Source: Nesterenkonia sp. Act20
GTDB lineage: Bacteria > Actinomycetota > Actinomycetes > Actinomycetales > Micrococcaceae
Assembly: GCF_019173455.1 (NCBI RefSeq)
Contig: NZ_JADPQH010000002.1
Span: 201,490 to 265,489 of the forward strand
Direction: 5' to 3'
DNA length: 64,000 bases
Position numbers and translations under genes: made by a program. The notes below the pieces were generated by a model. That model did no database searches and was not told where the DNA came from. It saw only the letters and a list, made by a program, of their open reading frames with translations. Positions within the stretch are counted from its first letter, which is position 1. Each line of letters opens with the position of its first letter. Shown here in pieces: positions 1,034 through 45,188 of the stretch.

Positions 1034-1330
1034 TCAGTCCCCCGGCCACGTTCCGGTCGCCTTCTGGAACACCCAGGCTCCGCCGCGGTCCACCAGGGCC
1101 TTCGCGAAGGCGAAGATCGATCCCTGGATGGCTGCGGCGAGCAGAACCTCACCGAGGTTGAACTCTGACTGCAGGGCCTGGGGTGCGGCCTTGCCATCGT
1201 TCTTGGAGCCCCATTTCCAGACCTTCTTGAATACCGCTCCCGCGACCGCGCCGGCGATCAGGCTGTTCACCAGACCGATCGGGCGGTAGACCGCCTTGGC
1301 CGCTGTGTTGCTGGAATCCTTCTTGCTCAT
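1034..1330 (-). CDS. DUF4235 family small membrane protein
   Basis: This 98-residue protein has two hydrophobic segments (about residues 20-38 and 62-82) separated by a basic KKVWKWGSK loop, the layout of the actinobacterial DUF4235 family. The function of the family is not known. It follows two other envelope proteins on the same strand (DUF3618 and a holin-like protein), the usual neighbours of this family in actinobacteria, so an envelope or stress role is inferred. A purine-rich GGAAGGAATATTCG precedes the ATG, with GGAAGG about 8 nt upstream. Confidence 0.8.
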   Translation of the reverse strand: MSKKDSSNTAAKAVYRPIGLVNSLIAGAVAGAVFKKVWKWGSKNDGKAAPQALQSEFNLGEVLLAAAIQGSIFAFAKALVDRGGAWVFQKATGTWPGD

Positions 1331-1391
1331 CGAATATTCCTTCCTTGTTCGTGTGCAGAGAAACGCGGTCCAGGTCCGCCTGTTTGGGTCG

Positions 1392-2187: not shown

Positions 2188-2226
2188 GTGGTGTCCTTCT
2201 TCTTCGGGATCGACATTGCGCGCTCT

Positions 2227-10123: not shown

Positions 10124-12103
10124 TCAGGCAGTCCGGGTGGTCAGCGCCGAGGAGGTCTCCAGGCGCGCGATGTACTGCTCCTCGGTCAGGGCGAGCACCT
10201 CGGCGGCCACGCCGTGGGCGTCCAGGATCCCGCTGGCCGCCATGGCCTTGGTGAGCCGGTGTTCGAAGGCGAGGTCATGGGCGAGGACCACCTCGTTGAC
10301 GATCGAGTACGGCCCCATCTGCTGATCCTTGGCCGGACGGTAGCCCTTGCCGAAGGCCTTCTGCCCGCTGAAGAAGTCGATGTTGAAGAGGCTGACCTGC
10401 GCCGGATCGAACTGCAGCACGTCGTAGAGAATCCGCCCGATCCCCATGGGCGGGCCGTGGAAGCCCAACGAGTAGTCGTGGCTGTAGAAGCGCAGCCAGT
10501 CCGGGAGATCCTCCCCGGCGGAGGCCCGGCTCAGTCCACGCCCGATCACCATCTGCAGCCGGCCGGCCTCCACCGCAGCTGAGGCCTCCTCGCGAAAGTC
10601 GTCGATGTCGCGGCCGGAGAAGTAGGCAATGTCGGTGCGACTGCCCAGCCGGGCGCGCTGCTCCTCGTCGAACTCCGTCATCAGCCGGGGTCGGATGATG
10701 ACGTCATAGCTGTCGATCAGCTCCCCGAGCCGGTCCCCGGTATCGGCCGGGCCGACGACGGCGATTCGCTTGCCCCGGATGAGCGTCTCCATCTGGGTCT
10801 CTCCCGGCAGGGGCAGCTCGGCGCGGCGCTGCGCGGAGTACTCCTGGTAGGGCGTGAGGTTGCCGCGGATCAGGTGGGTGTCCGCGGCCATCTTGCGCAG
10901 CCGCTGGCGGTCCACCTCCTGGTGCGGGGTCCAGGGCATGGGTTCGATGCGCTTGAGCGCCTCGTCCTCACGGCCGAGGTAGATCAGCGCGGAGAGCAGC
11001 TTCTGCCGGTGCCGCGTGTGCCCGGCAGAGTTGGTGCCCAGCCAGGTCACCGACCGCTGGGCCAGGTCGCGGCGCAGCGCGAAGGAGCTGCGCATCCGCT
11101 GCAGGAACTGGAGCCGGTAGACGATCAGCGAGGTGGTCGGCCACGACAGCCGCAGGCCGACGGCATGGGCGGCGTCCAGGGCCGCAAGCGCCTCATCCAC
11201 CTCAGCCTCGGATGGAGCGGCGGTGAAGAGCTCGCGCAGGGTGCGCGCCAGGTCCAGCTTCGCGGCGGTGTTGCGGCCCCGGGACGCTTCGAAGAGTTCC
11301 GCGCTGCGCCAGAGCCGCGGCCAGTCCTGGTCGGCACGGCAGCCCATGATGATCACGCCGCGGAAGGCGGTGGGGCTGGTGGGCTTGAGCTGCAGCGCCT
11401 TCTCATAGGCGTCCAGCGAGCGGTCGTAGTCGGCGATGTGCGGCTTGCGGTAGGCCGCTCCCAGGTCCGTCCACCAGGTGGCGCGGTTCTGCCGCTGCAG
11501 GGCGCGCTCCATCAGATCCAGGCCGACGGCGGCGTCGCCGTGTTCGAATTCCAGCTCGCCGCGTTCATGCAGGACGAAGGGGTTCTCCGGGTCGAGCTGC
11601 TCGGCGCGCGCGAGTGCCTCCCGGGCTTCCTCGGTCCGCGGCAAGGGGCCCTCGACCAGCCCGGCCACCGGGTCATGGACGATGTGTCCGCCGGTGGCGC
11701 GCAGCAGGGACCGGGCCAGCGCGACCCAGCGCAGCGCGACCTCGGGCTCCAGCTGCACGGCCCGCTGGCGCATGGCGAGCGCGGCGCCGTACTTCTTGAG
11801 CTTGAAGTACTGGAAGGCCAGGCGCTCCAGCTTGTCCGCGTCCTGCACCGTCGCGATGTCCAGCCGATCCAACACCGCCGAGGCTCCGCGCGGGTTGGCC
11901 TCCAACAGCACCGTGGCGGCCTTGTCCTGGAAGCCCCCGAGGGAGGAGCGCTCCCCCGTCATGGCCGTCTCCAGCTGTGAGGGCGCGACGCGTGAGGTCG
12001 CGAGGACCGCCCGGGCCAAGGCGCGGTCGACGCCGGGGACAGCGGTGGCAGCGCCGACGGTACGTCGACCGAATTCAGCGGCGAGGACTAGTGGTTTCAG
12101 CAT
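10124..12103 (-). CDS. Helical-repeat protein with C-terminal GT29-like (sialyltransferase-like) domain, second paralogue
   Basis: This 659-residue protein is a paralogue of the next gene, with the same order of parts. TPR-like helices (KKYGAALAMRQRAVQLEPEV, SLDAYEKALQLKPTSPTAF) are followed by a GT29-like end (KRIAVVGPADTGDRLGELI, DSYDVIIRPRL, RTDIAYFSGRDID, VSLFNIDFFSG, VVLAHDLAFEHRL). There is no signal peptide, so it acts inside the cell. It and its neighbour differ most in the N-terminal repeats, which may choose acceptor or partner. Specificity for a CMP-ulosonate is inferred from the context. Confidence 0.6.
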   Translation of the reverse strand: MLKPLVLAAEFGRRTVGAATAVPGVDRALARAVLATSRVAPSQLETAMTGERSSLGGFQDKAATVLLEANPRGASAVLDRLDIATVQDADKLERLAFQYFKLKKYGAALAMRQRAVQLEPEVALRWVALARSLLRATGGHIVHDPVAGLVEGPLPRTEEAREALARAEQLDPENPFVLHERGELEFEHGDAAVGLDLMERALQRQNRATWWTDLGAAYRKPHIADYDRSLDAYEKALQLKPTSPTAFRGVIIMGCRADQDWPRLWRSAELFEASRGRNTAAKLDLARTLRELFTAAPSEAEVDEALAALDAAHAVGLRLSWPTTSLIVYRLQFLQRMRSSFALRRDLAQRSVTWLGTNSAGHTRHRQKLLSALIYLGREDEALKRIEPMPWTPHQEVDRQRLRKMAADTHLIRGNLTPYQEYSAQRRAELPLPGETQMETLIRGKRIAVVGPADTGDRLGELIDSYDVIIRPRLMTEFDEEQRARLGSRTDIAYFSGRDIDDFREEASAAVEAGRLQMVIGRGLSRASAGEDLPDWLRFYSHDYSLGFHGPPMGIGRILYDVLQFDPAQVSLFNIDFFSGQKAFGKGYRPAKDQQMGPYSIVNEVVLAHDLAFEHRLTKAMAASGILDAHGVAAEVLALTEEQYIARLETSSALTTRTA

Positions 12104-13487: not shown

Positions 13488-14234
13488 TCAGAGCAGGCTC
13501 ACTCCGCGGTGGGTCCGGGCGAGCGCCATGTCCTCGAGCAGCTGGAACTGCTCGGGCCAGTCGATGTCCAGCACGGCGTTCTCCGGGAGCTCATACATCT
13601 TCGGGTTGGTGCCGACCCGGTCACCGACCTCCCGCATACGTGCGAACGGGATGAAGTAGGCGCCGTGGTTGATCTCGTAGAGCGGCTTGATGTCCTGGCT
13701 GCGGGGCCACTTCTCTGTGGTCGGGTCGTAGTTGAACGGCCCGTTCTCATCCCAGAGGAAGGTCTGCAATTTAGTGACGGTGAGCAGGCTGTCGTGCCCG
13801 GCGTCGGCCGCCTCGCGCCAGGCGCGGATGAGCTCCCGGAAGTACTCGGCCTGCAGGAACGGGTGGGTCACATGGGTCATGCACATGGTGCCGCTGGATT
13901 CCAGGGTGGCCACGTAGTCAATGAACTGACTCATCGGGGTGGAGGACCGGCCGAGCTCGTCCGGGCGCTCCAGCGGGACGAACCTGCTGCCGCCGGCAGT
14001 CTTGGCGAACTCCTCGGTCACGCTGAGTACCAGCGGATCGTTGGAGGAGACGATGATCTTGTCGATCTCTTCCACCACGGCCAGCTGCTGCAGCTTCAGC
14101 TCCAGGAGCCCGCCGGGGATCTCTGCGAAGGGCTTGGTGTTCTTTTGCGGCACCCGCTCGCTGCCAGCGCGGGCGGGGATGACCACGGTGATCGGGCCGA
14201 CGGCGTCTGCTGAGGTCTTTTCTGAGATGCTCAC
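13488..14234 (-). CDS. CMP-ulosonate synthetase (acylneuraminate cytidylyltransferase family), first paralogue
   Basis: The N-terminal PARAGSERVPQKNTKPF is the mononucleotide-binding motif of CMP-NeuAc and CMP-Kdo synthetases. TPMSQFIDYVATLE and MTHVTHPFLQAEYF follow as in NeuA. The enzyme would activate a 3-deoxy-ulosonic acid with CTP. It shares a segment with the second paralogue at 22.6 kb (NYDPTTEKWPRSQ against NYDRSVEKWPRTQ), so the two form a subfamily. It stands alone on its strand, convergent with the TupA-like gene, and is followed upstream by a strong inverted repeat. The ulosonic acid substrate is unknown. Confidence 0.85.
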   Translation of the reverse strand: MSISEKTSADAVGPITVVIPARAGSERVPQKNTKPFAEIPGGLLELKLQQLAVVEEIDKIIVSSNDPLVLSVTEEFAKTAGGSRFVPLERPDELGRSSTPMSQFIDYVATLESSGTMCMTHVTHPFLQAEYFRELIRAWREAADAGHDSLLTVTKLQTFLWDENGPFNYDPTTEKWPRSQDIKPLYEINHGAYFIPFARMREVGDRVGTNPKMYELPENAVLDIDWPEQFQLLEDMALARTHRGVSLL

Positions 14235-18086: not shown

Positions 18087-18515
18087 TTACCGCTGAGCGC
18101 TCTCCTCGCCGGCTGACTCTGCCCGCAGCCGGGCGATCTCGTCTTCAACGTACTGACGGTGGTCTTCGAATCCGGCGAGCGTGCGTGCCTCGCTGGTGCG
18201 CAGTCGGGCTTCGGTGGCGTCGAGGGTGCGGTTGATCTGGATGGTGCGCTCGTCGATGCGCCGGAACATCGCCGTGGTGCGCGCGGGCCTGACGCTCGCC
18301 TCCAAGTCGGTGAGCCTCCCGCGAATCCCAGAAGAGGTGTGGGTCATGGCCGCCAGGGTCAGAATCACCAGCGCCGAGAACAGACCGAAGCTAACGATCC
18401 CGGCGACGGCGGCGAAGACCCAAAGCTGCATCAGCACCGCGATCAGGGTGACCACCAGTGAGACCCCGTAGAGCGCGATCAGCCCGAGCTGTTCTTTGGA
18501 GAGTCCTCGAGTCAT
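18087..18515 (-). CDS. Small membrane protein with two helices and a coiled coil
   Basis: The ATG at 18515 overlaps the TGA of the upstream glycosyltransferase in an ATGA, so the two are translationally coupled. The 142-residue protein has two transmembrane helices (about 10-30 and 33-56) and then a charged helical segment (TDLEASVRPARTTAMFRRID, later EARLRTSEARTLAGFEDH) likely to form a coiled coil. No family is recognised. Similar two-helix coiled-coil proteins follow the other two long GT2 enzymes of this locus, which suggests a partner or anchor. A longer frame on the same strand upstream of this ATG is antisense-like and not part of the gene. Confidence 0.75.
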   Translation of the reverse strand: MTRGLSKEQLGLIALYGVSLVVTLIAVLMQLWVFAAVAGIVSFGLFSALVILTLAAMTHTSSGIRGRLTDLEASVRPARTTAMFRRIDERTIQINRTLDATEARLRTSEARTLAGFEDHRQYVEDEIARLRAESAGEESAQR

Positions 18516-21010
18516 AGGGCCAGTGTCTCCCGATCCGGTGTGGTCATGGTCTGCTCGGCCAGCTGGCCGATGAAGTCTGCATAGGCGGTCCACTCGTGCC
18601 TCCGGGCGAGGGCCAGTCCGCGTGCGGCCTGTTCGGCAAACAGCTGCTCGTCGGCGCTGTAGCGACGAATCAGCGGCTGAACGTCCTCCGCCTGGGCATA
18701 GAGTGCGGCGCGTCCGTAGACCGGCTCGAAGGCCGGAGGGAGGACCGCGACGGCGCCACTGGCCATCGCCTCCAAGACGGCCCGCTCCGGGTGATCGGGC
18801 GGAGTCTGCGCGTAGTGCACGAAGAAGTCCACGGCGCGGTAGAACCCTGCCCGGGATGCCTCTCCAGGTTCGAAGGCCACCCAATTGGCGGGCAGATGAC
18901 GGACGTTCAGAGCGCGCTGGGCGGCTGCAGGGTCCCCATAGAGGCGGACATCGGTGTTCTCCTCGGCAGGCCAGCGTGCGAGCGTCTCGGAGGCGTGAGC
19001 GGGCCAGTCTTCGCGGGTGACTCCGGCCCAGCGGCCGATCACGGGGCGCCGGGAGGAGAGGCTGCGGCGCCTCCTCGCGGCGCCGGGAGCGAAGGGACTG
19101 GTGTAGCTGAATGCGCTGATGTCCTCGGCCGGCAGCAGCTTGTTCAGGGCCGTTCGGACACGCGCGGTGCTCGGCACCCACTGGGCGCGGCGTCCGAAAT
19201 AAGCCTCTGCATGCCGGGCGCACTCCTCCGGCAGGTACTTGACCTTGGATTCGGCGTCGCGGGGCGGCGCCTCTGCGGCCACCACCACCTGCTCAGGGGT
19301 GAACGCCGTGGACCCGGCGGGCATGAATTGGAGGAGCTCGGGATTGCGCACCAGCAGCAGCCCCACCGCGTGGAAGTCTTCGTCGGCAAGGACCAGCTGG
19401 ACCTGACCGGTGGAGATGAGCTTCTCGATCGGGGCGCAGTGTGTCCGGGCGTAGCGGGCCAGGTGCAGCGCGTTGTCCAGGTGCAGCACGCCGACGCGCT
19501 GACCGGCCTGCAGCAGATGGTGGATCTCCTCGAGGGCGCTGATCTGTTCGGGGCCGTATTCGCACCAGTCGGCGGCGATCACCACGTCCAACCGGGGGCC
19601 AGGTGGCGGAGGCTGGGTGAACCGTGCCGGGACGTGGACTGGAGCGTCCTCTCCGGTGCTGAGCCGCAGTTGCTCCGGTGTGGCCCGGGTGTGCCAGGTC
19701 TTATAAGCGCTCCAGAACGCCCGCCGGGCAGGGTGCTGCCAGCCGGGGCGGAAGTCCGCGCGGGAGAGTGAGTCGGGGAGGATCCGCATAAAGATCAGCG
19801 GCTCTTTGATCAGCCCGACGGGTTTGCGGACGTAGGCGGCCAGTCTGTTCCGCAGCTCGTTATCCGCTGCCTTGCGGGCGGGCAGATAGCCGCCGAGTTC
19901 GCGGAGGAGCTGGGTGGGCGCCATGAGGGTGGGGGCGCTGGGGATATAGGGCAGGTAGCCGCGGCGGATGCGCACCAGATCCTCGGTCATGTTCACCGTG
20001 TAGACCTGGTTGCCCGGCTGGTCCGGGTGTCGCAGGAGGTCGCTGACCTGTTTCTCGATCCGCTGGGGGTGGGACCAGTCGTCGGCGTCCTGGCCGGTGA
20101 TGTACTCCCCTCGCGCCTGAGCGATTCCGACGTTGCGGGCGGCATAGGTGCCGCCGTTGGTGGCGAGCCTGATGACGCGGACCCGCTGGTCCAGGGCCTC
20201 GAGCTCATCGAGAATGGGCGCATAGTCCGCCGGAGAGGCGTCGTCGAGGATGAGCAGCTCCAGGTTCTGCCAGGTCTGCTCCAGGATGGAGCGCGCTGAC
20301 TGGAGCACGTCCTCTCGCTGCGGCTGGAACGCCGTCATGATCACGGTGACCAGCGGATCGGCGGGCCCCTCCCCCACGCGCGGTGCGTCGGGGTCTGGTG
20401 TGGAGGTGAGCAGGTTGAACGGGATGCCGTCTCCCGGGCGCAGCGTGACCGGAGCCAGGTCATAGTCGTCGAACTGCCGGTTGAACCGTTCCTGCCACCG
20501 CTGGACTGAAAGCCCGTCGCCGCCTCGGATGAACGGGCTGCGGGAATCGGTGACCAGGTAGTCGAAGTGGAAGGAGCGCACCTCGGGGTGCTCGGCAAAG
20601 AGCTGCTCCAGGTCAGCGAAGCGCTCCTGTTCGAAGAGCAGCTCGGCCTCAAGCTTGAGCAGCTGCCGCCTGTTGGTCGGCCAGTCCCTGGGCCGGTGGT
20701 TGATCAGCTGCAGCGCGGCCGTGGCAAACTCGGTATCGGTGGGCTCGGTGTTCTGCAGGGCGCAGACACCTGCGAGCCGGGCGAGCCAATCCACGCTCAG
20801 CGAGTAGCTGGAGACGGAGCCCTCAAGGACCTTCCCCACGGTTTCTGCGTATCCCATGGTCCCGTGGGAGGCGCCGGAGGCAAGGATCTCGCGCATGTGG
20901 ACGGAGGCGCCACGCAGGGCGGTGCTCTCAAGTTCAGCGATGCGCCCTGCTCCTCGGGAGATGTAGCCCTGGATCATGCCGGCGCGCCAGAGGTCCTCAG
21001 TGCTGTCCAA
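18512..21010 (-). CDS. Two-domain glycosyltransferase: GT2 followed by GT4-like
   Basis: A TTG at 21010 is the likely start, because AGGAGAGG lies 7 nt before it and the frame beyond looks non-coding; this gives 832 residues. Residues about 1-200 are helical. The GT2 domain (about 220-420) carries VTVIMTAFQPQRED, LELLILDDASPADY, GGTYAARNVGIAQARGEYI and TGQDADDWSHP. After a linker, residues about 640-830 hold a GT4-like domain (RPVIGRWAG and LEAMASGAVAVLPPAFEPVYG). The protein has no membrane helices. Its stop overlaps the next gene by 4 nt. It is a paralogue of the genes at 31,964 and 41,029. Confidence 0.8.
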   Translation of the reverse strand: MDSTEDLWRAGMIQGYISRGAGRIAELESTALRGASVHMREILASGASHGTMGYAETVGKVLEGSVSSYSLSVDWLARLAGVCALQNTEPTDTEFATAALQLINHRPRDWPTNRRQLLKLEAELLFEQERFADLEQLFAEHPEVRSFHFDYLVTDSRSPFIRGGDGLSVQRWQERFNRQFDDYDLAPVTLRPGDGIPFNLLTSTPDPDAPRVGEGPADPLVTVIMTAFQPQREDVLQSARSILEQTWQNLELLILDDASPADYAPILDELEALDQRVRVIRLATNGGTYAARNVGIAQARGEYITGQDADDWSHPQRIEKQVSDLLRHPDQPGNQVYTVNMTEDLVRIRRGYLPYIPSAPTLMAPTQLLRELGGYLPARKAADNELRNRLAAYVRKPVGLIKEPLIFMRILPDSLSRADFRPGWQHPARRAFWSAYKTWHTRATPEQLRLSTGEDAPVHVPARFTQPPPPGPRLDVVIAADWCEYGPEQISALEEIHHLLQAGQRVGVLHLDNALHLARYARTHCAPIEKLISTGQVQLVLADEDFHAVGLLLVRNPELLQFMPAGSTAFTPEQVVVAAEAPPRDAESKVKYLPEECARHAEAYFGRRAQWVPSTARVRTALNKLLPAEDISAFSYTSPFAPGAARRRRSLSSRRPVIGRWAGVTREDWPAHASETLARWPAEENTDVRLYGDPAAAQRALNVRHLPANWVAFEPGEASRAGFYRAVDFFVHYAQTPPDHPERAVLEAMASGAVAVLPPAFEPVYGRAALYAQAEDVQPLIRRYSADEQLFAEQAARGLALARRHEWTAYADFIGQLAEQTMTTPDRETLAL

Positions 21011-21062
21011 AATGCGCCCTCTCCTCTGCTGCCCCTCCAGCTGCGTTTCGTCCCGCAGCACT

Positions 21063-21956
21063 CTACGCGGTCCAGTCCTCGAGCATAGTGACACCGCGGT
21101 CAATCGTGTCCACGAATCGGGCGCGGCCCGGGGGCTCGTGAAAGGGTGCCGCGGAGTACTCTTCGAAGCGGACCCGTTCCGCGTTGGGGCCACCCTGGAC
21201 GGAGTCTCTGAAGGGCAGATAGTGCTTCACGTAATGGTGTTCATCGCGGACGTTCTGCACCACCAGCGCGTAGTTCTGACGCGGCTCTGAGTAGGTTGTG
21301 ATGGCGGAGACGCGGCTGCCGAGCGCCAGCAGCCATTTTCGGCGAGACCTGTCTCGCTGTTCGAGCGCAGGCATGATGCGTCGAATGTAGCTGGCCTGCG
21401 CCTTCCAGTGATACCTGTTCAGCGCGGTCTGAGCGTTGAAGGAGATCGCCAGGCTTCCGGGAAGATGCGGGGCGACTTGAAGTGCGGCGAAACCCCCTCC
21501 GGAAGACCCGACCAAGACTATCTGGTCGGCACCGGCCGCCTCCGCCGCCTTAGTGATGACCTCCCCCAGCAACGGATAAAGCTCCACTCCCTCCCACCCC
21601 AGATACCAAGCGAGCAGCAGCTTGGAATCAACCGTGAGTGTGGGGTCAGACAAAAACAGACAGGAGTACTCAGTGCGTTCATCCAGCGTGCGGAGCCACT
21701 CGAAGCGGGGCAGGTGATGACGTCCGTTGAGCATGGCCCCGTGAAACACGACGACGAGCGCGCGGCTGCCCTTGTTCAGCAGCAACGCGTCCAGGCGGCC
21801 CCGGTCGTCAAGGGCGACAGCGTAGCGCAGCGCACCCCGCTGGGCACTGAACACCAGCTCTGCAGGGAAATCAAAGCGCACTACCGGGACGGAGATGCCG
21901 CCCCGATCTGGGGCGACGACGGGTTCAGTGTTCATGATCAGCGACAAGTATGCCAT
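21063..21956 (-). CDS. Alpha/beta hydrolase of the polysaccharide-locus type, first paralogue
   Basis: I chose the ATG at 21956, 22 nt after the HAD gene, giving 297 residues; an ATG at 21935 is also possible. The nucleophile elbow is GSSGGGFAAL with the catalytic Ser, preceded by the VVVFHGAMLNGR strand and the oxyanion region. A late RDEHHYVKHYLPF region may provide the catalytic His. It resembles the protein at 27,921 (both have FHGA, an elbow GSSGGGFA and a WY-containing segment before it). Such hydrolases may add or remove acyl groups on the polymer; the substrate is not known. Confidence 0.75.
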   Translation of the reverse strand: MAYLSLIMNTEPVVAPDRGGISVPVVRFDFPAELVFSAQRGALRYAVALDDRGRLDALLLNKGSRALVVVFHGAMLNGRHHLPRFEWLRTLDERTEYSCLFLSDPTLTVDSKLLLAWYLGWEGVELYPLLGEVITKAAEAAGADQIVLVGSSGGGFAALQVAPHLPGSLAISFNAQTALNRYHWKAQASYIRRIMPALEQRDRSRRKWLLALGSRVSAITTYSEPRQNYALVVQNVRDEHHYVKHYLPFRDSVQGGPNAERVRFEEYSAAPFHEPPGRARFVDTIDRGVTMLEDWTA

Positions 21957-21978
21957 CAAACCCAGACTCGCCGGATCG

Positions 21979-22635
21979 CTAGAGGAGGGTCTGCAGACTC
22001 TCCACGCTGGCGATGTCGTTCCGCTGGCACCACGCTTTCCACCCGGGGACTTCGGTCCATCCGGAGATGAAGATGAAGTCGAGTCCAGCTTTAGTGGACG
22101 CCCTGTAATCGTAGGTGCTGTCGCCGAGGAACAGCGCGGGTCCGGAGATATTCTCTCGCTCCAGTTCCCGGGCAAGGATGGCGTCTTTCGTGTCCGGGCT
22201 GCCGAAGATGCCGCCATCGAAGTGCTCGTGGATGCCGCGAGTCGTGAAGATCTCGCGAATCTCTTCTTGGTCTCCTCCAGAGACGATCAGCCACTGGGAC
22301 GCTTTGGTGGCTTCGCGCAGCTCGTCCAAGCCTGGGGCGATCTCGCATGCCATCAGACCGGTGCGAACATGCCCAGCGTAGGTCTCCAGCAGAGAATCCA
22401 GTCCCGGACCTTGGCTACCATCGACCATTTCGTCAAGGAAGAGCGCGAACTTCTTGTAGCGGGAGATCCCACCATTGGCCACGTGGAATTCGACCATCCG
22501 CTGCGCCGCTTCCTCACCGTAGGCCAGGGCGGTCTGGTAGAAGGCCTGGGTCTTGACCTTGTTGGAGTCGAGAACCACCCCGTCACAGTCGAAGACCAGC
22601 GTCGGGTACTTCGAGAGCTCAACCGGTGAGCTCAC
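21979..22635 (-). CDS. HAD superfamily hydrolase
   Basis: This 218-residue haloacid-dehalogenase-like protein shows motif I FDCDGVVLDSN, with the nucleophile Asp and the acid Asp two residues later. Motif II is IVSGGDQEE, and motifs III and IV are the Lys/Asp regions around DTKDAIL and FLGDSTYDY. A helical cap lies between I and II. It is probably a phosphatase for a sugar or ulosonate phosphate. The GTG start overlaps the stop of the CMP-ulosonate synthetase by 4 nt, which couples it to the aldolase pathway. Substrate is inferred. Confidence 0.85.
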   Translation of the reverse strand: MSSPVELSKYPTLVFDCDGVVLDSNKVKTQAFYQTALAYGEEAAQRMVEFHVANGGISRYKKFALFLDEMVDGSQGPGLDSLLETYAGHVRTGLMACEIAPGLDELREATKASQWLIVSGGDQEEIREIFTTRGIHEHFDGGIFGSPDTKDAILARELERENISGPALFLGDSTYDYRASTKAGLDFIFISGWTEVPGWKAWCQRNDIASVESLQTLL

Positions 22636-23324
22636 AGCTCCACGAGGCCCTTCTGCAGGAGCGTCTCCCCCACGATGAAGTCCGCGTTCCAGTCGATGTC
22701 GTGGCTGACCAGCTTGTCCAGGGAGTACAGGTACGGGTGCTCGCCAATGCGGTCATCGAGCTCCTGGTAGACCTGCGCCGGGGCGAGGAACACGCCACTG
22801 TTGACCTCATGGACAGGTTCCAGCGTCTGCGTGCGTGGCCATTTCTCCACGGACCGGTCATAGTTCATCGGACGTTCGCGCTGCCAGAGGAAACCGTGGA
22901 TTTCGGTGGTCGTCATCAAGGAGTCATAGCCAGCGGCGAGCTGCTCCTGGTAAGCAGCGATGATCTTGTCGTACTGGGCAGCGGTGATGAACGGGCTGGT
23001 GACATGCGTCCACAGAATGTGCCCCTCCCCGATCAGCTCCAGAGCGTGGGCCACCAGCTGGTCGGTGCTGGTCGCGCTCGAGGACAGCTCCTCGGCACGC
23101 CGGTGCACTCGGAGCTTCGGGCTGTCCAGGGTCTGTGCGTAGGTGAGGATTTCCTCATCGTTGGTGGACAGGACGACTTCGTCTACACGGTCGCTAGAGA
23201 AGAGCTGCTTGAGCTTGATCTCGATCAGTCCATGCTGAACATCCGCGAAAGGCTTGATGTTCTTGCGCGGGACGCGCTGACTGCCGGCCCGGCACGGAAG
23301 GAAGGCGGTGACGCGTTCGCTCAT
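22632..23324 (-). CDS. CMP-ulosonate synthetase (acylneuraminate cytidylyltransferase family), second paralogue
   Basis: The 230-residue protein begins with LPCRAGSQRVPRKNIKPF, the nucleotide-binding motif of NeuA-like enzymes, and continues with SATSTDQLVAHALELIGEG and WTHVTSPFITAAQYD. It shares the NYD...KWPR.Q motif with the paralogue at 13,488. The ATG overlaps the upstream aldolase stop by 4 nt (ATGA) and its own stop overlaps the HAD gene by 4 nt. That tight coupling says the aldolase product is probably the acid activated here. The exact acid, Kdn-like, Kdo-like or other, cannot be read from the sequence. Confidence 0.85.
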   Translation of the reverse strand: MSERVTAFLPCRAGSQRVPRKNIKPFADVQHGLIEIKLKQLFSSDRVDEVVLSTNDEEILTYAQTLDSPKLRVHRRAEELSSSATSTDQLVAHALELIGEGHILWTHVTSPFITAAQYDKIIAAYQEQLAAGYDSLMTTTEIHGFLWQRERPMNYDRSVEKWPRTQTLEPVHEVNSGVFLAPAQVYQELDDRIGEHPYLYSLDKLVSHDIDWNADFIVGETLLQKGLVEL

Positions 23325-24958
23325 CGGATCATTCCGTAGACGCTCTTCTGGACGTCCACATCGTATTTGGTAGGGGTGATCGAGGTCAGCTGCACCGAAG
23401 TCTCTTCCTCCGTGTAACGGCGGACCACGCTGTTCATCTCCTCATTACGCGCATCTTCTCCGGGGTAGCCGTCGAATCCTGCGAGGTGGAGACTCTTTGC
23501 CTTGCCGCTGGCGATGACAGCAAAGGCATACGCCATCACCAGCGAGGTCGGCGCGACGCAGTGCGTATCCCCGAAGCTGAAGGTGTCTGGCTGCACGCGG
23601 AGCCCGAAGTCCAAGACTTCTTTGTTCCCCAGCGCGTCCTTCGCATCCTGCGGCAACATCGAGTAGGGCGCGATCAACGGCTGAGGCAGACGCACATGCT
23701 CCTCGGCGTCGGCCAGCAGTCGGATGGGATGGGAAGCGACCCGCACATCGATGAGCTCGGAAGAGACTGAGGTCTGCGTATTCAGCGCGACGACAAACGG
23801 CTTGTGCTCCTTGATGAAGGACTCGAGTGCGAGCTGGTGGTCAGCGACGCCGGGGCCGGTTCCGAGCAGCAGCACGTCGCGATCCTTGAAGAGGCTCTGG
23901 GGGTTCCAGCTACCCTTCGCGTCCTCGCCATAGAACTGCCGAGCTGCATCCATGGTCTGGACATCAAACTTCGCGCCGCCTTCAACGCGAAGGTGCCCGA
24001 TCACGGAGAGCACATCTTCCTCGTCGTACCGCGCATCATTGAGCATGAACTGGATGTAGGTCGGGTGGATGCTGTATTTGCCGGCCAGGTAGTAGAACGG
24101 GTTGGTTCCCCATCCGTAGTGGGCCTGCATCGGCTTGAAGTGCTCGCGAAGCAAGTTCATCAGCGGCACGAAGTTCGGGTTCTTGCCCCTCCGGGCGGCC
24201 ATTTCAATGGCAAGCTCTTCGGTGCGGGCATTGCCGGGCCCACGGCCCATGCCGGTGACCGTCGAATCGATCCACTCGACGCCCTCGTCCATCGCGCGCA
24301 GCGAGTTGGAGAGGGCCAGCCCCATGTTGTCGTGGGTGTGAATGCCCATGGGTCCGGACCATTCAGTTCGGATCCACTGAATGATCTGGGCCGTCTGCTC
24401 CGGGGACATGCCGCCGAAGCTGTCGGCAAAATAGAGGACATCGAGCGGGTACTGAGCGGCGGTGCGCGCGAGCCGCTTGATGTCCTCTTCGCTGCGGTCA
24501 GCGACCTGCATGAGGTTGAAGCCGACCTTGTAACCGCGCTCTTTCAGCCAGTCTGTGGCGGGAACGGCGGCTTCGAACTCGTGGACATGGCAGGCAACAC
24601 GGACAAGCTCTACGGGTGAATCCTCCGCTGTGACGGGGAACAGCCGTTCAAGCGCGTCGATCTGAGGCATGGTCTTGCCGGTCAGCTCGCCTCCGTTGAC
24701 CATGACTCCGATCATCACTGAACTGGGAAGCGGAAGGCTGCGAAGGAAGTCATCGGTGGTGAAAGCACAGGGACCTTGGTACCCAGAGTCCTTCAGCGTG
24801 CGGAAGCCTAGCTCGAGCGCGTCCACACCTGCCGCCGGCAGCGCGTTCAGATAGTCCAGGATGAGCTCTCGGGAGAAGTCCCAAGAGTTGTAGTACCCAC
24901 CATCTCTAAAAGTGCAGTCGAGGAACGTCGGCATTGCAGAACTGGTCGAATTAGTCAC
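23321..24958 (-). CDS. HMGL-type aldolase fused to a GT42/DUF115-like C-terminal domain
   Basis: Residues about 10-300 form an HMG-CoA-lyase-like TIM barrel. LDCTFRDGGYYNSWDF holds the metal and substrate Asp-Gly-Gly signature seen in pyruvate aldolases, and GIHTHDNMGLALSN gives the HxH metal ligands and Asn. This class condenses or cleaves pyruvate with an aldehyde. Residues about 345-545 are a separate Rossmann-like domain (DVLLLGTGPGVADHQLAL, SLHLAGFDGYPGEDA) resembling DUF115 and GT42 sialyltransferases. The start is a GTG at 24958 with AGGA 8 nt upstream. It heads a coupled set with the cytidylyltransferase and HAD genes. A sugar-ulosonate synthase role is inferred from that. Confidence 0.75.
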   Translation of the reverse strand: MTNSTSSAMPTFLDCTFRDGGYYNSWDFSRELILDYLNALPAAGVDALELGFRTLKDSGYQGPCAFTTDDFLRSLPLPSSVMIGVMVNGGELTGKTMPQIDALERLFPVTAEDSPVELVRVACHVHEFEAAVPATDWLKERGYKVGFNLMQVADRSEEDIKRLARTAAQYPLDVLYFADSFGGMSPEQTAQIIQWIRTEWSGPMGIHTHDNMGLALSNSLRAMDEGVEWIDSTVTGMGRGPGNARTEELAIEMAARRGKNPNFVPLMNLLREHFKPMQAHYGWGTNPFYYLAGKYSIHPTYIQFMLNDARYDEEDVLSVIGHLRVEGGAKFDVQTMDAARQFYGEDAKGSWNPQSLFKDRDVLLLGTGPGVADHQLALESFIKEHKPFVVALNTQTSVSSELIDVRVASHPIRLLADAEEHVRLPQPLIAPYSMLPQDAKDALGNKEVLDFGLRVQPDTFSFGDTHCVAPTSLVMAYAFAVIASGKAKSLHLAGFDGYPGEDARNEEMNSVVRRYTEEETSVQLTSITPTKYDVDVQKSVYGMIR

Positions 24959-27920: not shown

Positions 27921-28880
27921 TCAACTAATCGAGGACTGCTTGAGAAGCCCTGCCTTGACGACTTTCGCCATTCCTATATCACTTTCGGAAGTCACCCGGG
28001 TAGAAGTCTCTTCACGACGCGTCGAGCCCGAAACAGACTGGGACGCCAGCATTGCAGATGTGGCGAGGAGGTCTTCGACACCGAGACTTGGTGACGTGAG
28101 CGCGGTCCTCAACCATCTTGTGTAGCCTTCCGCAGGAACTGCACCACCATGACCGGGCTTTCCCCAATAGTCCGAGGAAAGGATGACCTTCTCATCCTCC
28201 GGCTCACCAGTCTTGTAACAAGCTGTCAAGAATGGTGTTAGCTGAAGCGCGTTGTGCTTAAAGTCGCCCTGACTCTGCACATAGACAACGCTATTGTTAA
28301 AACCTGATGCGTAAAGAGATGTTACATCAAGACACGTCTCTTTAGAGGCTTGCTCTAGCGATCTTCCTGGCCAGCATTGCTGCAGGTAGTTCACCACGGC
28401 TCCCGGCGAAAAATGTCTCTCCAAGTTCGTCTGCGGCACCATCACCAACGCCAGACTTTCGGGATCGTGGTACGAGAAGTAGAGAGCCGCGAAACCACCG
28501 CCCGAACTGCCGAGGTAAATAGTCCGTGAGGGCGAGAGGCTCGACTTCACAGCTGCAATGAACTCGAGGAGGACTGACTGCACGTCTAGCCCCTCATGAC
28601 CCGCATACCAGCTACAGGAAAATCCGTCTCGTGACATCATGGTCGGATCACAAATCGAGATCTGATGAGCATTATCACTGAATGACTTTAAATTTGCCTG
28701 AAAAGCTGGCAGGGGTCGGAGATCACGTTTGACTGCGCCATGAAAGCGGATCACGAGCGGCGCGGAATCGAAGGGCGCACGAATAAATTTAAAGTGAACT
28801 TCTGTGCCATTTAAGGTTACGTAATCCTGAATCTCTTGTCCAGGTGCAACATTTAGGCGATTCGTAATTTCTTGGATCAT
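27921..28880 (-). CDS. Alpha/beta hydrolase of the polysaccharide-locus type, second paralogue
   Basis: This 319-residue protein resembles the hydrolase at 21,063. It has VIRFHGAVKRDLRPLPAF, then CSWYAGHEGLDVQSVLLEFI, and the nucleophile elbow YLGSSGGGFAALYFSYHD. There is no signal peptide, so it acts in the cytoplasm, perhaps on a nucleotide-linked or lipid-linked sugar. It sits between a GT4 gene and a GSCFA gene, with a 1-nt gap to the GT4 stop. GAGGAA lies 4 nt before the ATG. The region is A/T-rich compared with its paralogue. Confidence 0.78.
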   Translation of the reverse strand: MIQEITNRLNVAPGQEIQDYVTLNGTEVHFKFIRAPFDSAPLVIRFHGAVKRDLRPLPAFQANLKSFSDNAHQISICDPTMMSRDGFSCSWYAGHEGLDVQSVLLEFIAAVKSSLSPSRTIYLGSSGGGFAALYFSYHDPESLALVMVPQTNLERHFSPGAVVNYLQQCWPGRSLEQASKETCLDVTSLYASGFNNSVVYVQSQGDFKHNALQLTPFLTACYKTGEPEDEKVILSSDYWGKPGHGGAVPAEGYTRWLRTALTSPSLGVEDLLATSAMLASQSVSGSTRREETSTRVTSESDIGMAKVVKAGLLKQSSIS

Positions 28881-30395: not shown

Positions 30396-31980
30396 TCCTT
30401 TGAATCACACCCAACCTACTGATAGCCATGTCTCGCTGTTCGAACTCGGTATTGGCGGACAACCACTGCTCTAGAATTTCCTGCTCCTCTCCACGGTGAG
30501 TGTCGTCCAGGACGACGACAGCGTTGCGCGCAAGTCTCGCTTTGAGCACTGGGAGAGCAGGGAATCGTGCTGCGTCACCTACTCCCTTCGGGGGACCATC
30601 TACAAGTAGGAAATCAATATCCCGAGTATCACCCAGGGCAGACTCGGAATACCACTCAAAGTCTCGTCCATCAACGACGATCTTCTCCAACGGTGCAAAA
30701 CGGCACTCCACGACGTCGGTCAGGCCATGTCGAGCAACCGCTTCTTGAGTAAGTTTGAGGTATTTGTCTAGGTGGTCCAGTGAAATCACTTTGGCCCCGT
30801 ACTGACGAGCGATATGGCCCATCCACACGGTAGAAGCACCACTGCCTAGTTCAACGATCATCTTGGGACGCGTCTGCTCTAATAGCGCGACCAGGTGCAA
30901 CAGCGCCTCCGGATCCATTGCAGACCCACCCGTTGCGGGTAGACCAACCGGTGGGTTCGGCACTTTGGGAACTAGCTGGAGAAGCGCTTGTACTTGGCGA
31001 GTCTCTTCCCGCGACATCAGGGTCACATGACGAGAAATCTTCTGCTCGAGTCGTTCCGAAGCGCTATCGAACTTCGCAACTGAGGCACTGCCTACCTCTG
31101 AGACCCGCTTGGACAACCTCTCCTCTTGCCTTTGCATCTCTGCCCGCAACTCTCGAACCAGCCCCTCGGCATGCCCTTGATCTTCTTCCACGCTGTTACG
31201 CGAAGCTGTCAGGCGGCGGTCATGTTCCTTGAGCAATGACAAAGCGCTTTCCACACTAATTTCCTGAGCTTCGATGGCAGTCCTTGCAATTTCCCAGCGT
31301 TCTGCAGACCGAAGACGTTCAGTCTCAGTGATACTCAAAATTCTACGCTCAGACTGCTCCACACGCGCCTTCAACTGGAGAACCGCATCGTTATCCTTGA
31401 GCAGTTTCAGTATTCTTCGCTCCCCAGCCCTGGCGCTACTCGCCTCTTCAGCGAAAAGACGAACTGATTCATTCAGTAGATCCTTGACTGCAGGGAACTC
31501 AGAGCGGGCGAGATTGAGTGTCTTCTTGCCCCTGAGGTCGAGATCCTCCAGTGCGGTCTTGATCTCTTCAATGCTGGCGCTGTCAGGACGCGACGTCAAT
31601 GCGGACGACAACCCTGAGATTCTCGCTCTTAACTCCTCGGTCTCGGACTTTGCGCTGTTCGCGACCTCCAGTTGGTGGAGCTTCAACTCCTGAAATTGGC
31701 GATCAACCTCCACGCTATGTTTACCAACTATTCCGGAGAACTTCCTCGTAGTTGCCTCAACATGATCCAACAGGTCTTTGCCGGAGCTCTCGAGCCTGAC
31801 CAACGAAGCGCGGTTCGCATCGACGCTGACGATGACTCGCGCGCCAGCGCACACTGCGGCCCCTAACGACGAGTAGCCGGCCAATGCAGCGATACCCCAG
31901 TTCTCAGTCAGAACCGACACAGCGCCAACAACCACACTCACGGCGACAATGACTACAAATACCCTATAGCTCCGAGACAT
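30376..31980 (-). CDS. Membrane coiled-coil protein with C-terminal SAM-dependent methyltransferase domain
   Basis: The first 55 residues hold two transmembrane helices. A very long coiled coil follows to about residue 310 (SAKSETEELRARISGL, SVESALSLLKEHDRRLTASR). Residues about 345-534 form a class I methyltransferase. The SAM-binding loop is MIVELGSGASTVWMG, followed by VISLDHLDKYLKLTQEA, FLLVDGPPKGVGDAARFPAL and AVVVLDDTHR, close to the Methyltransf_24/CmcI type. The gene overlaps the preceding glycosyltransferase by 17 nt. It probably methylates the polymer, perhaps as a terminator of chain growth held at the membrane; that role is inference. Confidence 0.8.
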   Translation of the reverse strand: MSRSYRVFVVIVAVSVVVGAVSVLTENWGIAALAGYSSLGAAVCAGARVIVSVDANRASLVRLESSGKDLLDHVEATTRKFSGIVGKHSVEVDRQFQELKLHQLEVANSAKSETEELRARISGLSSALTSRPDSASIEEIKTALEDLDLRGKKTLNLARSEFPAVKDLLNESVRLFAEEASSARAGERRILKLLKDNDAVLQLKARVEQSERRILSITETERLRSAERWEIARTAIEAQEISVESALSLLKEHDRRLTASRNSVEEDQGHAEGLVRELRAEMQRQEERLSKRVSEVGSASVAKFDSASERLEQKISRHVTLMSREETRQVQALLQLVPKVPNPPVGLPATGGSAMDPEALLHLVALLEQTRPKMIVELGSGASTVWMGHIARQYGAKVISLDHLDKYLKLTQEAVARHGLTDVVECRFAPLEKIVVDGRDFEWYSESALGDTRDIDFLLVDGPPKGVGDAARFPALPVLKARLARNAVVVLDDTHRGEEQEILEQWLSANTEFEQRDMAISRLGVIQRNGEQRG

Positions 31981-34468
31981 AATGACCCCTAAGATCCCCG
32001 ACTTTTAGTGCCGACACTGGCATTCGCAATTCTCGCGCTATAAATCTGATATAAGCAACCCTTGGAAATCGGTTGATTACACATCGCACGGCCCTATCAG
32101 ATTGCCGCCTATAATCATCCCAGTCTGACCAATAATTAATGATTATCGATGGAACATCAACTTGCTCTGCATACACTGCACCATCCCCAAAAATCGGCTC
32201 AAACTCTGGGGCTAAAATAACCACACACCCAGTTGCCATCGCTTCAAGGACCTCGCGGTAGTGGTCTCCAGGCCACTGGGCGCTCTGGAAATAGACGAAG
32301 AAATCGATCGACGAATAAAAAACTCGTGGTTCGATCTCCGACTCGTCAAAAACAACCCAGGTCTCCGAATTTTGCTCTAGTAGTCGTTGTTTTGGCCCGA
32401 AATTGAGACTTCCCAGGATTCGCACGTCTGCATTTCGCACAGGGGTCCAGGCATCCCTGCGTTGCCCACATGCTTCTGGCCACGAGGACGCTATGCCCTG
32501 CGAGTGACGGCCCAAGACCGGCATGGTATTGCGGCGCCTGCTGCGTGGTACCGTCCACTCTTCAGGAAAGATGGCATGGGGTAGGACTTCCTTGCGCAAG
32601 TCACACTCTGAAACTCCCATCCCAGTTAGCATGCTTTGTATCGACTCGTTGGCCGCGACCCAAGCCGGCGAAACACCGAAGTGCAGCTTGACGTTGCGAG
32701 ACACATCCAGTGGCAGGTATGACAGCTCTGATCCATCGAGGTTCGCGGGTGCTTGAGAAGCCACCACTAAGAGTCTTCGAACCTGTAACTTCGACGGCCC
32801 ACGCGGGGCGAACTGCATCACTTCCGGATCCTTTATCACGATGATTCCGATCACTCCGTCGTCGTCGTCGAAAATCTGCGACACGACCCCCTCGTGAATT
32901 AGCTTCTGAATTTCGTCCGCTAGGGGCACGGCTTCCATCGAGGGGGACCATATAGACTCAAATTGGAGCAAACCAACGGCCAAGCCCTCATCCGTGAGGG
33001 ACCTGAGCTGTTCCGCAGCAGAACGTAAATGCCCCGAGGAACCCCGGAAATCCCCAGCGAGCACCACATCTAGGTGTCTTGCGGGAGGGGTCAACACTCG
33101 AAGGCGATCAGGAACCGGGATAGGAAGTGTCTCAGCTTCCCTGCGGGGCACATGATGCTCAGTCACATTAGCTGTCCGATGCCAATAACTCACTTCACTC
33201 CAAAATGCACGCCTCGCTGGGTGTGACCAACCGGGTCTAAAATCACTCCGCGACAACGACTCAGACGTAGACCGGATAAGGTAAAGCGGCTCATCGAGTT
33301 TCGTGACGGTTGCACCAGTATGGCACTCGATCCGGCGACGGAACTCCCCATCTGCTCCTCTACGGATTGCTAGGTATCCCCCGAGTTCGTCGGCGATCGA
33401 ACTGGGGATCATCAAACTAACTTCGCAACGTCGGAGCGGGTTTAATCCACGTTGTATACGCACTAGCGTCATATTCGCGCGAATGGCAGAAGTCGTCACT
33501 CCCGGCGCTTCAGGATTAGCCTGGAGATACCGAACTTGAGTCAGCAAGCGATCAGGGTGTGACCAGTCATCAGAATCCTGCCCCGTAATATAGTCCCCGG
33601 TAGCCGCCTCCATGCCAAAGTTTCTCGCCCGATACGTTCCACCGTTCTCCTTGAGAGTGAGGATGCTTACGCGCGGATCCATGCTGCTAGCAGCTTCCAA
33701 CACTTTTTTAAATTGAGCAGGGCTGGAGTCATCAACAATTATTAACTCGAGATTGCGCCACGATTGGTTCAGGATTGATCGAACTGCACATAGGAACGTT
33801 TCGCGTTGCGGCCGGAATGATGTCATTATGACCGAAATTTTAGGCCCAGGCGGGTCTGGAGCAAGCAGGCAATCAGTAGTAATTGCATCAAAAGGATCTA
33901 CTTTAGATGAAGAAAGATATATCGGACGCAAATTGAACTTTTCAAATGGAGAATTAAAATTGTCTATCCACTCACTGTACGAATGATTTTTGTTCAGGAA
34001 TGGACTATTAATGTCTGCGCTCAGATATCCGTGAAACAAACTATCAATGTCGCGATTTCTTTTAACGAGAGACAATGCTTCCTGGAGTAGCCCTTCTTCG
34101 GTGAGCAGCTCGACTTGCAGCCTGTGGAAGCGCCTATGCTTTTTATCTGTAGCGAGTTCCGGATTGGAAACCTCGAAGAACCGCAAAGCATCTAGTCTAT
34201 CGCTCGGCTCGAAATCCTGTAATGCGCAAACTCGTGCAAGCCTGGCCAACCACAAGTAGTCCAACCCCGACTCTTGAGCTGATTGGAGGTTCTCAGTGAG
34301 CCACGCAAAATCACCTCGACCCTTGGTGGCGCCGTATGCGAAGAGGTCCCGGACACCAACCGACTCGGAGAGCAGGGCATACGACTCAGCGATGTCAGCG
34401 TTGGCTTCCAAGCGCCTGAACGCGCTCTCAAGAAGTGCCCCGCGATCGAAGTTCTGGTCCTGGTACAT
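31964..34468 (-). CDS. Two-domain glycosyltransferase: GT2 followed by GT4-like
   Basis: I set the start at ATG 34468 because GAAGGAG lies 5 nt upstream, although the frame stays open for 99 more codons. The 834-residue protein has the architecture of the gene at 18,512. A helical N-terminus (LDYLWLARLARVCALQD against the paralogue's VDWLARLAGVCALQN) leads into a GT2 domain (about 210-400) with KISVIMTSFRPQRET, LELIIVDDSSPAQF, GGTYRARNFGMEAATGDYI and TGQDSDDWSHP. A GT4-like end follows with MPVLGRHSQG and LEAMATGCVVILAPEFEPIFG. It is A/T-rich and overlaps the methyltransferase gene. Confidence 0.82.
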   Translation of the reverse strand: MYQDQNFDRGALLESAFRRLEANADIAESYALLSESVGVRDLFAYGATKGRGDFAWLTENLQSAQESGLDYLWLARLARVCALQDFEPSDRLDALRFFEVSNPELATDKKHRRFHRLQVELLTEEGLLQEALSLVKRNRDIDSLFHGYLSADINSPFLNKNHSYSEWIDNFNSPFEKFNLRPIYLSSSKVDPFDAITTDCLLAPDPPGPKISVIMTSFRPQRETFLCAVRSILNQSWRNLELIIVDDSSPAQFKKVLEAASSMDPRVSILTLKENGGTYRARNFGMEAATGDYITGQDSDDWSHPDRLLTQVRYLQANPEAPGVTTSAIRANMTLVRIQRGLNPLRRCEVSLMIPSSIADELGGYLAIRRGADGEFRRRIECHTGATVTKLDEPLYLIRSTSESLSRSDFRPGWSHPARRAFWSEVSYWHRTANVTEHHVPRREAETLPIPVPDRLRVLTPPARHLDVVLAGDFRGSSGHLRSAAEQLRSLTDEGLAVGLLQFESIWSPSMEAVPLADEIQKLIHEGVVSQIFDDDDGVIGIIVIKDPEVMQFAPRGPSKLQVRRLLVVASQAPANLDGSELSYLPLDVSRNVKLHFGVSPAWVAANESIQSMLTGMGVSECDLRKEVLPHAIFPEEWTVPRSRRRNTMPVLGRHSQGIASSWPEACGQRRDAWTPVRNADVRILGSLNFGPKQRLLEQNSETWVVFDESEIEPRVFYSSIDFFVYFQSAQWPGDHYREVLEAMATGCVVILAPEFEPIFGDGAVYAEQVDVPSIIINYWSDWDDYRRQSDRAVRCVINRFPRVAYIRFIARELRMPVSALKVGDLRGHYVSEL

Positions 34469-35000
34469 ACTCGCTCCTTCACAATACTCCGGGACTGATC
34501 CTAGACCAGGACGCAAGCCAACTACATTGCCCACTTCGCCTGCGGTTCGAGACACTCGCATGTGACCCCTCGAGCGATTCGCCTCTAGTGAAGGGTTCGA
34601 TCGATCGGACCAAGGAGTATCGCGCAAGTTAACGTCGTACTTCTTATCGAGGCCCGCAGCTGAACCACCACGGTCAATCCTTCTACAGGAACACATACCC
34701 GACATCCTAAAAAGTGGTGACATCCTTCGGGCGCTAGCATTCACGTGGACCTGCGACTCCTCCATTCAGTAGCTCGCAGAACCTGAATCCGTAAAACGTC
34801 TTCGCAACCGCGAGGCGAGGAACGCCTACGACGGTGAGTACGTGACGCAGCTCGACAGTAATTGCGACGTGCACACCGTTTCCATCCTCTCCGCAACGTC
34901 ACGAGGCTGTTCGGCTAGAGTCGTATCGGCCTTCGCGGCTTCGGCTGGATTACGTATAGGATCTGTGGGACATCAAGTTAGCCAGACGTAAGGGGCACCA
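34469..35000. other. Intergenic region between divergent glycopolymer genes
   Basis: About 530 nt lie between the GT2/GT4-like gene and the UDP-sugar dehydrogenase. The minus frame of the GT gene stays open for about 300 nt here but its product looks non-coding. I see no strong hairpin or repeat. The two divergent promoters must lie here; I cannot place them with confidence. Confidence 0.35.
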
Positions 35001-45111: not shown

Positions 45112-45188
45112 AAACCTGCGATCCCGTGTGCGTGGTAAGAGCAAGACAACCGAGCGTCAGGCTATCAAAGCCCTCCATCGGTCCTGGG

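Follow-up and report, generated by a model that had tools for sequence, protein, structure and literature searches.

Sialic acids, Kdo and Kdn are ulosonic acids that decorate bacterial surfaces. The synthases known to build them are of the NeuB or KdsA type, and both types depend on phosphoenolpyruvate. We analyzed a 64,000-nucleotide stretch of the Nesterenkonia sp. Act20 genome (contig NZ_JADPQH010000002.1, positions 201,490 to 265,489; hereafter the window), where a gene at 23321–24958 on the minus strand encodes a pyruvate aldolase barrel of the HMGL family fused to a Rossmann domain. This aldolase appears to catalyze the first step in an undescribed bacterial pathway to sialic-acid-like surface sugars, and many unrelated bacteria carry its gene. 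It is proposed to give the same class of product as NeuB and KdsA and to feed the same cytidine monophosphate (CMP) synthetases, but it belongs to the HMGL family and its proposed substrate is pyruvate. The nearest printed parallel that we found is in Serratia marcescens KL1 and KL2, where NeuB is reported to carry a COG1082 domain, KDN is found in the capsule and sialic acid is about 4-fold lower in neuB mutants (PMC9000132). The likeness is that of a capsule ulosonate synthase with an extra domain; both the synthase and the extra domain differ from those of the aldolase fusion. We found no description of an HMGL-type ulosonate route in the literature that we searched (titles and abstract openings, mostly from non-subscription sources). 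An earlier reading of this DNA, made from the sequence alone, had called such a route unusual. We could find no account of it in that literature, but the genes are common across phyla.

The aldolase gene runs from 24958 to 23321, starts with GTG and encodes 545 amino acids, and the plus strand of the same interval is interrupted by stop codons. A CMP-ulosonate synthetase gene and then a HAD phosphatase gene follow, and the coordinates confirm the 4-nucleotide overlaps reported by the sequence-only reading: the aldolase frame ends at 23321 where the synthetase gene has started at 23324, and the synthetase gene ends at 22632 where the phosphatase gene has started at 22635. The cassette and the two parts of the fused protein are as follows.

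23321–24958, minus strand: fused protein of 545 amino acids, HMGL (DmpG-type) pyruvate aldolase barrel plus Maf/MptE/GT42-like domain, proposed ulosonate synthase (open reading frame, Pfam, structure model)
23969–24928, minus strand: aldolase barrel with helical extension, residues 11–330 (R18, D19, S180, H207 and H209 conserved; Y22 at the DmpG His position)
23324–23917, minus strand: C-terminal Rossmann domain, residues 348–545, Maf/MptE(DUF115)/GT42 fold (D496, R/K at 413 and T528 conserved)
22632–23324, minus strand: CMP-ulosonate synthetase, NeuA/PseF-type, 230 amino acids (PF02348, NeuA match in the PDB; 4-nucleotide overlap with the aldolase gene)
21979–22635, minus strand: HAD-IA phosphatase, 218 amino acids, proposed ulosonate-phosphate phosphatase (Pfam HAD; 4-nucleotide overlap with the CMP synthetase gene)

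The signature motifs that had been named were located at residues 18–24 (RDGGYYN), 207–211 (HTHDN), 363–375 (LLLGTGPGVADHQ) and 490–501 (LHLAGFDGYPGE). The Pfam E-values are 1.2e-28 for HMGL-like in the aldolase, 1.9e-12 for CTP_transf_3 in the CMP synthetase and 2.4e-11 for HAD in the phosphatase. The synthetase scores 47.9 bits with PF02348 (cut-off 22.6) and 65.2 bits with the PseF equivalog of NCBIfam, which is under the cut-off of 205.7, and in the PDB it matches NeuA proteins (3e-15). A PDB search with the phosphatase at an E-value of 0.001 found no relative.

The barrel matches PF00682 (HMGL-like) at 100.7 bits, against a gathering cut-off of 29, and the full-length structure model has a mean predicted local distance difference test score (pLDDT) of 94.0 with only residues 1–4 below 50. 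Among solved structures the closest is 3dxi, which holds the N-terminal domain of BVU_2661, a putative Bacteroides vulgatus aldolase (phmmer 8.9e-49; Foldseek 7.1e-23, TM-score by target 0.89). The title of 3dxi implies a further domain and names no function, the crystal holds only the N-terminal part, unlike our full-length protein, and no paper on it was found in the literature searched. The next structures are DmpG-type 4-hydroxy-2-oxovalerate aldolases (Foldseek, TM-score by target 0.75–0.80). Pfam and the nearest PDB structures thus bear out the earlier assignment of the N-terminal part to the HMGL/DmpG-type aldolases.

The likeness to DmpG/BphI (1nvm, 4lrt, 4jn6, 8ih7) covers the barrel, the R-D and HxH metal/pyruvate site and S180. 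R18, D19 and S180 are present in 67 of 67 fused barrels and H207 and H209 in 66 of 67 (61/61 for R18 and D19 and 60/61 for H207 and H209 in the 61-row full-length alignment), and we take these five to be the metal and pyruvate residues of DmpG. The differences are Tyr22 at the position of His21 in DmpG, a different partner domain, no communication domain and a polysaccharide context. Tyr22 occurs in 66 of 67 fused rows where the R-D-G-S-H motif of DmpG has a His (3/3 DmpG rows) that presumably plays a catalytic role. W26 (67/67), W283 (67/67) and Y289 (65/67) mark the fused barrels and are not shared with the three DmpG rows. With TIGR03217, the 4-hydroxy-2-oxovalerate aldolase equivalog, the protein reaches 104.3 bits against a cut-off of 286, and the DmpG communication domain PF07836 is not listed for it at E-values up to 0.01 (this domain was found in the DmpG-like L005). 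Taken together, these features make the barrel a distinct branch whose active site is apparently intact. The window aldolase stays below the cut-off in each of the 24 NCBIfam models listed and has no PF03102 or KdsA match, HMGL being the only one of these families listed for it.

Relatives came from a one-genome-per-species scan with two barrel motifs as the query, of which the best 80 of 582 were kept. The 61 aligned full-length rows comprise the window protein and proteins of the Pseudomonadota, Bacillota, Bacteroidota, Omnitrophota and Myxococcota. Identity to full-length relatives with both domains is 94% in a congener, 42–47% in three genomes elsewhere in the phylum and 57.7% for those on Leisingera plasmids, where the three-gene order is conserved as well. 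Since these relatives keep both domains, and the gene order in Leisingera, the fusion is not a chance event. Of the fused loci, 59 (window included) extend 2.5 kb or more on each side of the gene. In 53 of them a CMP synthetase is found no more than 2.5 kb away on the same strand, in 39 a HAD protein of the window's type and in 38 both; if either of two HAD types is allowed, the phosphatase count rises to 42. Within 100 bp, a CMP synthetase was found for 46 of 76 fused genes, as against 39 of 713 other open reading frames (ORFs) of the same loci. Lone barrels, which have no C-terminal domain, had a CMP synthetase in 0 of 10 loci (L028–L031, L079, L085, L100, L105, L109 and L111; L031 is counted here though it falls on the DmpG side of the tree).

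For these counts we left out of the fused set L039 (gene split), L077 (broken), L081 and L091 (short frames) and the lone barrels L079, L085, L100, L105, L109 and L111. L091 showed no CMP synthetase on search and is outside the lone count, and L004 and L026 are used only in the tree (short flanks). L080 (cut by a contig end) and L087 (a different fusion) are inside a set of 77 loci and outside the 59, and L080 is also inside the 76. L054, in which one odd frame matches CMP synthetase as well as HAD, was kept in the C-terminal domain set out of doubt. Some lone barrels (L028:7974-8996, L029:8001-9026, L100, L105, L079 and L085), which are of the same family but have no CMP synthetase in their loci, apparently belong to another pathway; those on Mesorhizobium and Paraburkholderia plasmids lie beside SDR and HAD-IA genes, and L029 also has a phosphoserine aminotransferase. 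In Candidatus Symbiopectobacterium endolongispinus (L077:8968-10587) the aldolase gene is spread over several frames, and the HAD and CMP synthetase frames remain.

The synthetase beside the aldolase is not always of the same type. Typed by best BLAST score against three seeds per type, the nearest synthetase in the 77 loci is KdsB-type in 44, NeuA/PseF-type in 24 and ambiguous in 1, with none or only a far one in 8. The synthetases of L027, L033, L061 and L068 pass at least one NCBIfam KdsB subfamily cut-off, that of L068 alone passing the kdsB equivalog too, and the closest PDB entry for the one in L033 is the 3-deoxy-manno-octulosonate cytidylyltransferase 1gq9 (6.7e-42). KdsB-type and NeuA/PseF-type synthetases both activate 3-deoxy-2-ulosonic acids, and therefore their constant partner, the aldolase, should make one. 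The two kinds of domain also meet in a single protein: on L087, a 4.2 kb contig from an uncultured Bacteroidetes, one ORF (1118-2896, plus strand) holds the barrel and a KdsB-type synthetase (PF02348, 7.2e-42), and an ORF that is HAD-like by sequence adjoins it.

We also counted synthases against synthetases. A profile search of all ORFs found NeuB in 11 of the 77 loci (PF03102 was confirmed for ten NeuB proteins of nine loci; L071 and L108 rest on the profile). Ten of these loci have two CMP synthetases, and the other, L108, has one and a NeuB cut by the contig end. The 66 loci with no NeuB in the stretch covered have one CMP synthetase in 55 cases, none in 6 and two in 5. We rejected NeuB as a hidden source of acid for the cassette, because only 11 of 77 loci carry it and ten of these have two CMP synthetases. 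The window's own genome (2.93 Mb, 97% complete) has three PF02348 matches, one of which is GlmU by sequence, leaving two CMP synthetases. It has a single NeuB, no PF00793 protein and no KdsA match, and therefore one synthetase is without a conventional source of substrate. The features of the window that enter this count, together with the gene beside NeuB, are the following.

13488–14234, minus strand: second CMP-ulosonate synthetase of the genome, NeuA/PseF-type, presumed partner of NeuB (Pfam, NCBIfam, genome count)
45189–46775, minus strand: second ulosonate synthase, NeuB with a fused N-terminal GPS-motif Rossmann-like domain (the only NeuB found in the genome)
46657–47391, minus strand: inositol-monophosphatase-family phosphatase beside the NeuB fusion (38–40% identical to those of Enterobacter and E. 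coli operons)

Among 30 genomes of the genus, the number of CMP-synthetase domains equals NeuB plus aldolase copies in 25, with zero on both sides in 10. This count was done by hand, leaving out matches judged GlmU-like from the length of the frame and the position of the match (L116 being the only one read as sequence) and taking two neighboring pieces in G601 as one CMP synthetase. In all six aldolase genomes of the genus, of which two are no more than 62% and 79% complete, a synthetase lies directly beside the aldolase. Elsewhere, the aldolase has a KdsB-type synthetase as its partner in G329 (100% complete), G410, G258 (96%) and Rossellomorea, and none of the four has a KdsA over the cut-off. 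Three of them have only a distant match to the KdsA model (116–128 of 314 bits, in a frame of 365–386 residues), which is probably DAHP synthase. The claim of the sequence-only reading that the barrel supplies a 3-deoxy-ulosonic acid is thus very probably correct, given the swapped synthetase types, the direct barrel–synthetase fusion and the whole-genome accounting.

The tree of barrels places the window gene and that of the congener with Vreelandella (Halomonadaceae), with support of 100/99, among Pseudomonadota. Judging by this grouping, the aldolase gene of the window is a lateral acquisition. The fused rows do not form a single clade, and the fused/lone label needs at least 3 changes on the tree.

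The C-terminal domain modeled alone has a pLDDT of 97.5. The nearest fold to this predicted model is the Maf glycosyltransferase 5mu5 (Z 14.7, root-mean-square deviation (rmsd) 3.1, 185 residues aligned), followed by SteA (Z 12.8), MptE 8sd5 (Z 12.0, rmsd 3.3, 161 aligned; 1.7e-4 by Foldseek), CstII 2drj (Z 10.2, rmsd 3.9, 166 aligned) and CstI 2p56 (Z 10.1). Mammalian sialyltransferases come at Z 7–8, a level at which the likeness may be no more than a common arrangement. A profile of 60 C-terminal domains searched against PDB sequences gave GT42 sialyltransferases first (E = 0.0011). Individually, 32 of the 60 match the MptE-like PF01973 (E-values up to 0.1, best 9.4e-10) and one matches the GT42 family PF06002 (0.006), with neither found for the window protein. 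Profile and fold comparison therefore give the GT42/DUF115 group that had been suggested, with Maf nearest, and no unrelated family.

Like Maf, MptE and the GT42 enzymes CstI and CstII, the domain has a GPS loop and a GFD-Y motif; unlike them, it has about 200 residues, is fused to a synthase and, by sequence alignment, keeps no His where the GT42 base would be expected. D496 (61/61) and Y498 (Y in 51 and F in 9 of 61 rows) align with the D and Y of 'GIDFY' in CstII, and position 413 is R or K in 61/61, E507 is conserved in 54/61, T528 in 59/61 and Y532 in 57/61. These conserved residues suggest a working ligand site. The catalytic His of GT42 presumably follows GIDFY, in the region Y498–T528, and in our sequence alignment (made without superposition) no column there has 15 or more His in 61 rows; the His columns of the alignment are elsewhere, at 374 and 410. 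The domain had been called sialyltransferase-like. This stands for the fold, where the predicted model fits GT42, while transfer of a CMP-sugar, and with it sialyltransferase identity, is not established.

A similar domain may be present on the NeuB of the window. The true start of this NeuB is probably downstream of the listed one, and the protein is extended at its N-terminus by about 240 residues, which include a GKGPS loop and a VGFDFT motif. Matches to the fusion occur in 19 of the 30 genus genomes, its own included (frames of 523–614 residues in 18, pieces in G601), and on Enterobacter and E. coli plasmids (L124, L125) at 44% identity, beside a phosphatase of the same kind and a CMP synthetase. 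A search of 396 genomes of the phylum for the N-terminal domain found it in the own genome only. Compared as single sequences, this domain and the C-terminal domain of the aldolase give an hhalign probability of 7.5%; with 8 homologues this becomes 90.2% (E = 1.6e-6), over 47 columns only. The profile of the NeuB domain had no match in the PDB, and PF01973 was seen in 2 of 8 of its homologues (0.048). The kinship of the two domains is suggestive, not proven, from these alignments. If they are kin, the same kind of domain sits on two unrelated ulosonate synthases, and control or hand-off would then be a better fit than transfer to specific acceptors. The NeuB fusion, as weaker evidence, points to a role of the fused domain in ulosonate synthesis or its control.

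The route that we propose would begin with the metal-dependent aldolase joining the pyruvate enolate to a sugar aldehyde, probably a sugar phosphate. The product would be a 3-deoxy-2-ulosonic acid (phosphate), from which the HAD phosphatase would take the phosphate off. The CMP synthetase would then activate the free acid for incorporation into surface polysaccharide. The C-terminal domain most likely has CMP-ulosonate or a cytidine nucleotide as its ligand and exerts control over the synthase or assists it, and it may have a transferase role. No enzyme family recurs widely enough in the neighborhoods to name the aldehyde, and with it the sugar; the commonest neighbors, judged on their opening sequence, are a family that we take to be WbsX-type-like, NAD-dependent epimerases and aminotransferases.

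That the barrel is a pyruvate-dependent ulosonate synthase in place of NeuB or KdsA we consider likely, because of the gene overlaps, the recurrence of the cassette, the swap of synthetase types, the L087 fusion, the counts of synthases and synthetases and the conserved site. Several observations weigh against it. Of the 59 fused loci, 17 have no HAD of either type and 6 lack a CMP synthetase within 2.5 kb. The loci are related by descent and not independent, so that enrichment statistics overstate, and only the best relatives of the scan were kept. An HpcH/HpaI aldolase lies in or near the cassette in 7 loci (L025, L034, L036, L061, L068, L103 and L104) and a DHDPS-type aldolase in L072. Two CMP synthetases occur without NeuB in the stretch in L053, L060, L076, L082 and the window (whose NeuB is outside the slice); among the congeners, one CMP domain is in excess in G594, G165, G600 and G605, where two lie in tandem in one ORF, and G595 has a synthetase with neither synthase. 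KdsA is present in three Gram-negative hosts (the L033, L035 and L046 genomes) and in Bacillus sp. ISL-41, and therefore Kdo is available there by the usual way. In loci with a second pyruvate aldolase the HMGL enzyme may do another step, and the division of labor may differ there and where HAD or CMP synthetase is missing. The second aldolases and the KdsA of the three Gram-negative hosts tested would suit a rival reading, in which the HMGL protein has an auxiliary task on the carbon chain, such as to make or trim the aldehyde, and the ulosonate comes from another aldolase or a chromosomal KdsA. We think this improbable: no HpcH/HpaI was seen in the stretch covered in the other 69 of 77 loci (DHDPS-type aldolases were searched in some), the window's own genome and the four Gram-positive genomes with KdsB-type synthetases have no KdsA over the cut-off, and L087 joins the barrel to a CMP synthetase. 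We would be surprised if the protein were a misplaced catabolic 4-hydroxy-2-oxovalerate aldolase or isopropylmalate/citramalate-type synthase that lies near polysaccharide genes by accident. PF00682 and the DmpG-like fold would suit such an enzyme, but the cassette is conserved across phyla, Tyr22 replaces the DmpG His and no aldehyde dehydrogenase is near the aldolase among the 20 window proteins scanned. The catabolic DmpG reading was rejected for its score, the missing communication domain and the neighborhood, and the acyl-CoA condensing readings (isopropylmalate, citramalate and homocitrate synthase) were rejected as all score far under their NCBIfam cut-offs.

The fused domain could be a true CMP-ulosonate glycosyltransferase (Maf/GT42-like), in which case one protein would both make and transfer the sugar. 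The Maf, MptE and CstII folds, the GT42 profile matches and the alignment of D496 and Y498 with CstII all speak for this. Against them stand the lack of a conserved His in the alignment and the persistence of the domain in unrelated loci and phyla, where acceptors should differ. In addition, the fold is no farther from SteA, whose title names it a regulator of cell division, than from MptE, and so fold does not fix function. We regard a transfer role as doubtful and give a sensing or assisting role about even weight, with the remainder left for some other function. Taken jointly, our proposal is a NeuB/KdsA-free, HMGL-started route to CMP-ulosonates in several phyla, in which the HMGL aldolase and NeuB each gained a domain of the CMP-sialyltransferase fold group that senses the CMP-sugar or hands it on, and whose product may be an ulosonic acid new to nature. 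We hold this whole with middling confidence.

The surroundings of the cassette form a polysaccharide locus with several glycosyltransferases, a GSCFA protein, a TupA-like ATP-grasp protein, the second CMP synthetase and NeuB. The large glycosyltransferase proteins at 18512-21193, 31964-34765 and 41029-45144 (all minus strand) are alike in make-up, the second being judged from its sequence only. Two proteins, at 21063-22217 and 27921-28880 (minus strand), have a GSSGGGFAAL motif and no Pfam match and are alpha/beta-hydrolase-like by motif only; the first overlaps the HAD gene, and so its true start is probably downstream of the listed one. The paralogous TPR proteins at 8366-10120 and 10124-12103 (minus strand) are 38.5% identical and carry a C-terminal VVGP motif. 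One of the pair has a very weak GT29 match (0.26), and they are candidate CMP-ulosonate transferases; BLAST gave no significant match between them and the 596- and 607-residue proteins of the Enterobacter and E. coli operons. An aldehyde dehydrogenase (PF00171) lies at 60758-62203 (plus strand), 36 kb from the aldolase, with no sign of a connection. Outside the window, the congeners with tandem CMP synthetases (L127, L128) have NeuB and lack the aldolase, and an LdpA-like iron-sulfur protein is present in L061, L068 and L103, with a similar-looking one in L062 and L025.

If the proposed route is real, it would add a third, widespread type of ulosonate synthase, and surveys based on NeuB and KdsA would miss part of the ulosonic-acid producers. 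Among the relatives listed, those missed would include marine bacteria such as SAR11 and gut Bacteroidota. The cassette makes the route testable directly with three small proteins, and it would offer a pyruvate-based enzyme for making rare sugars.

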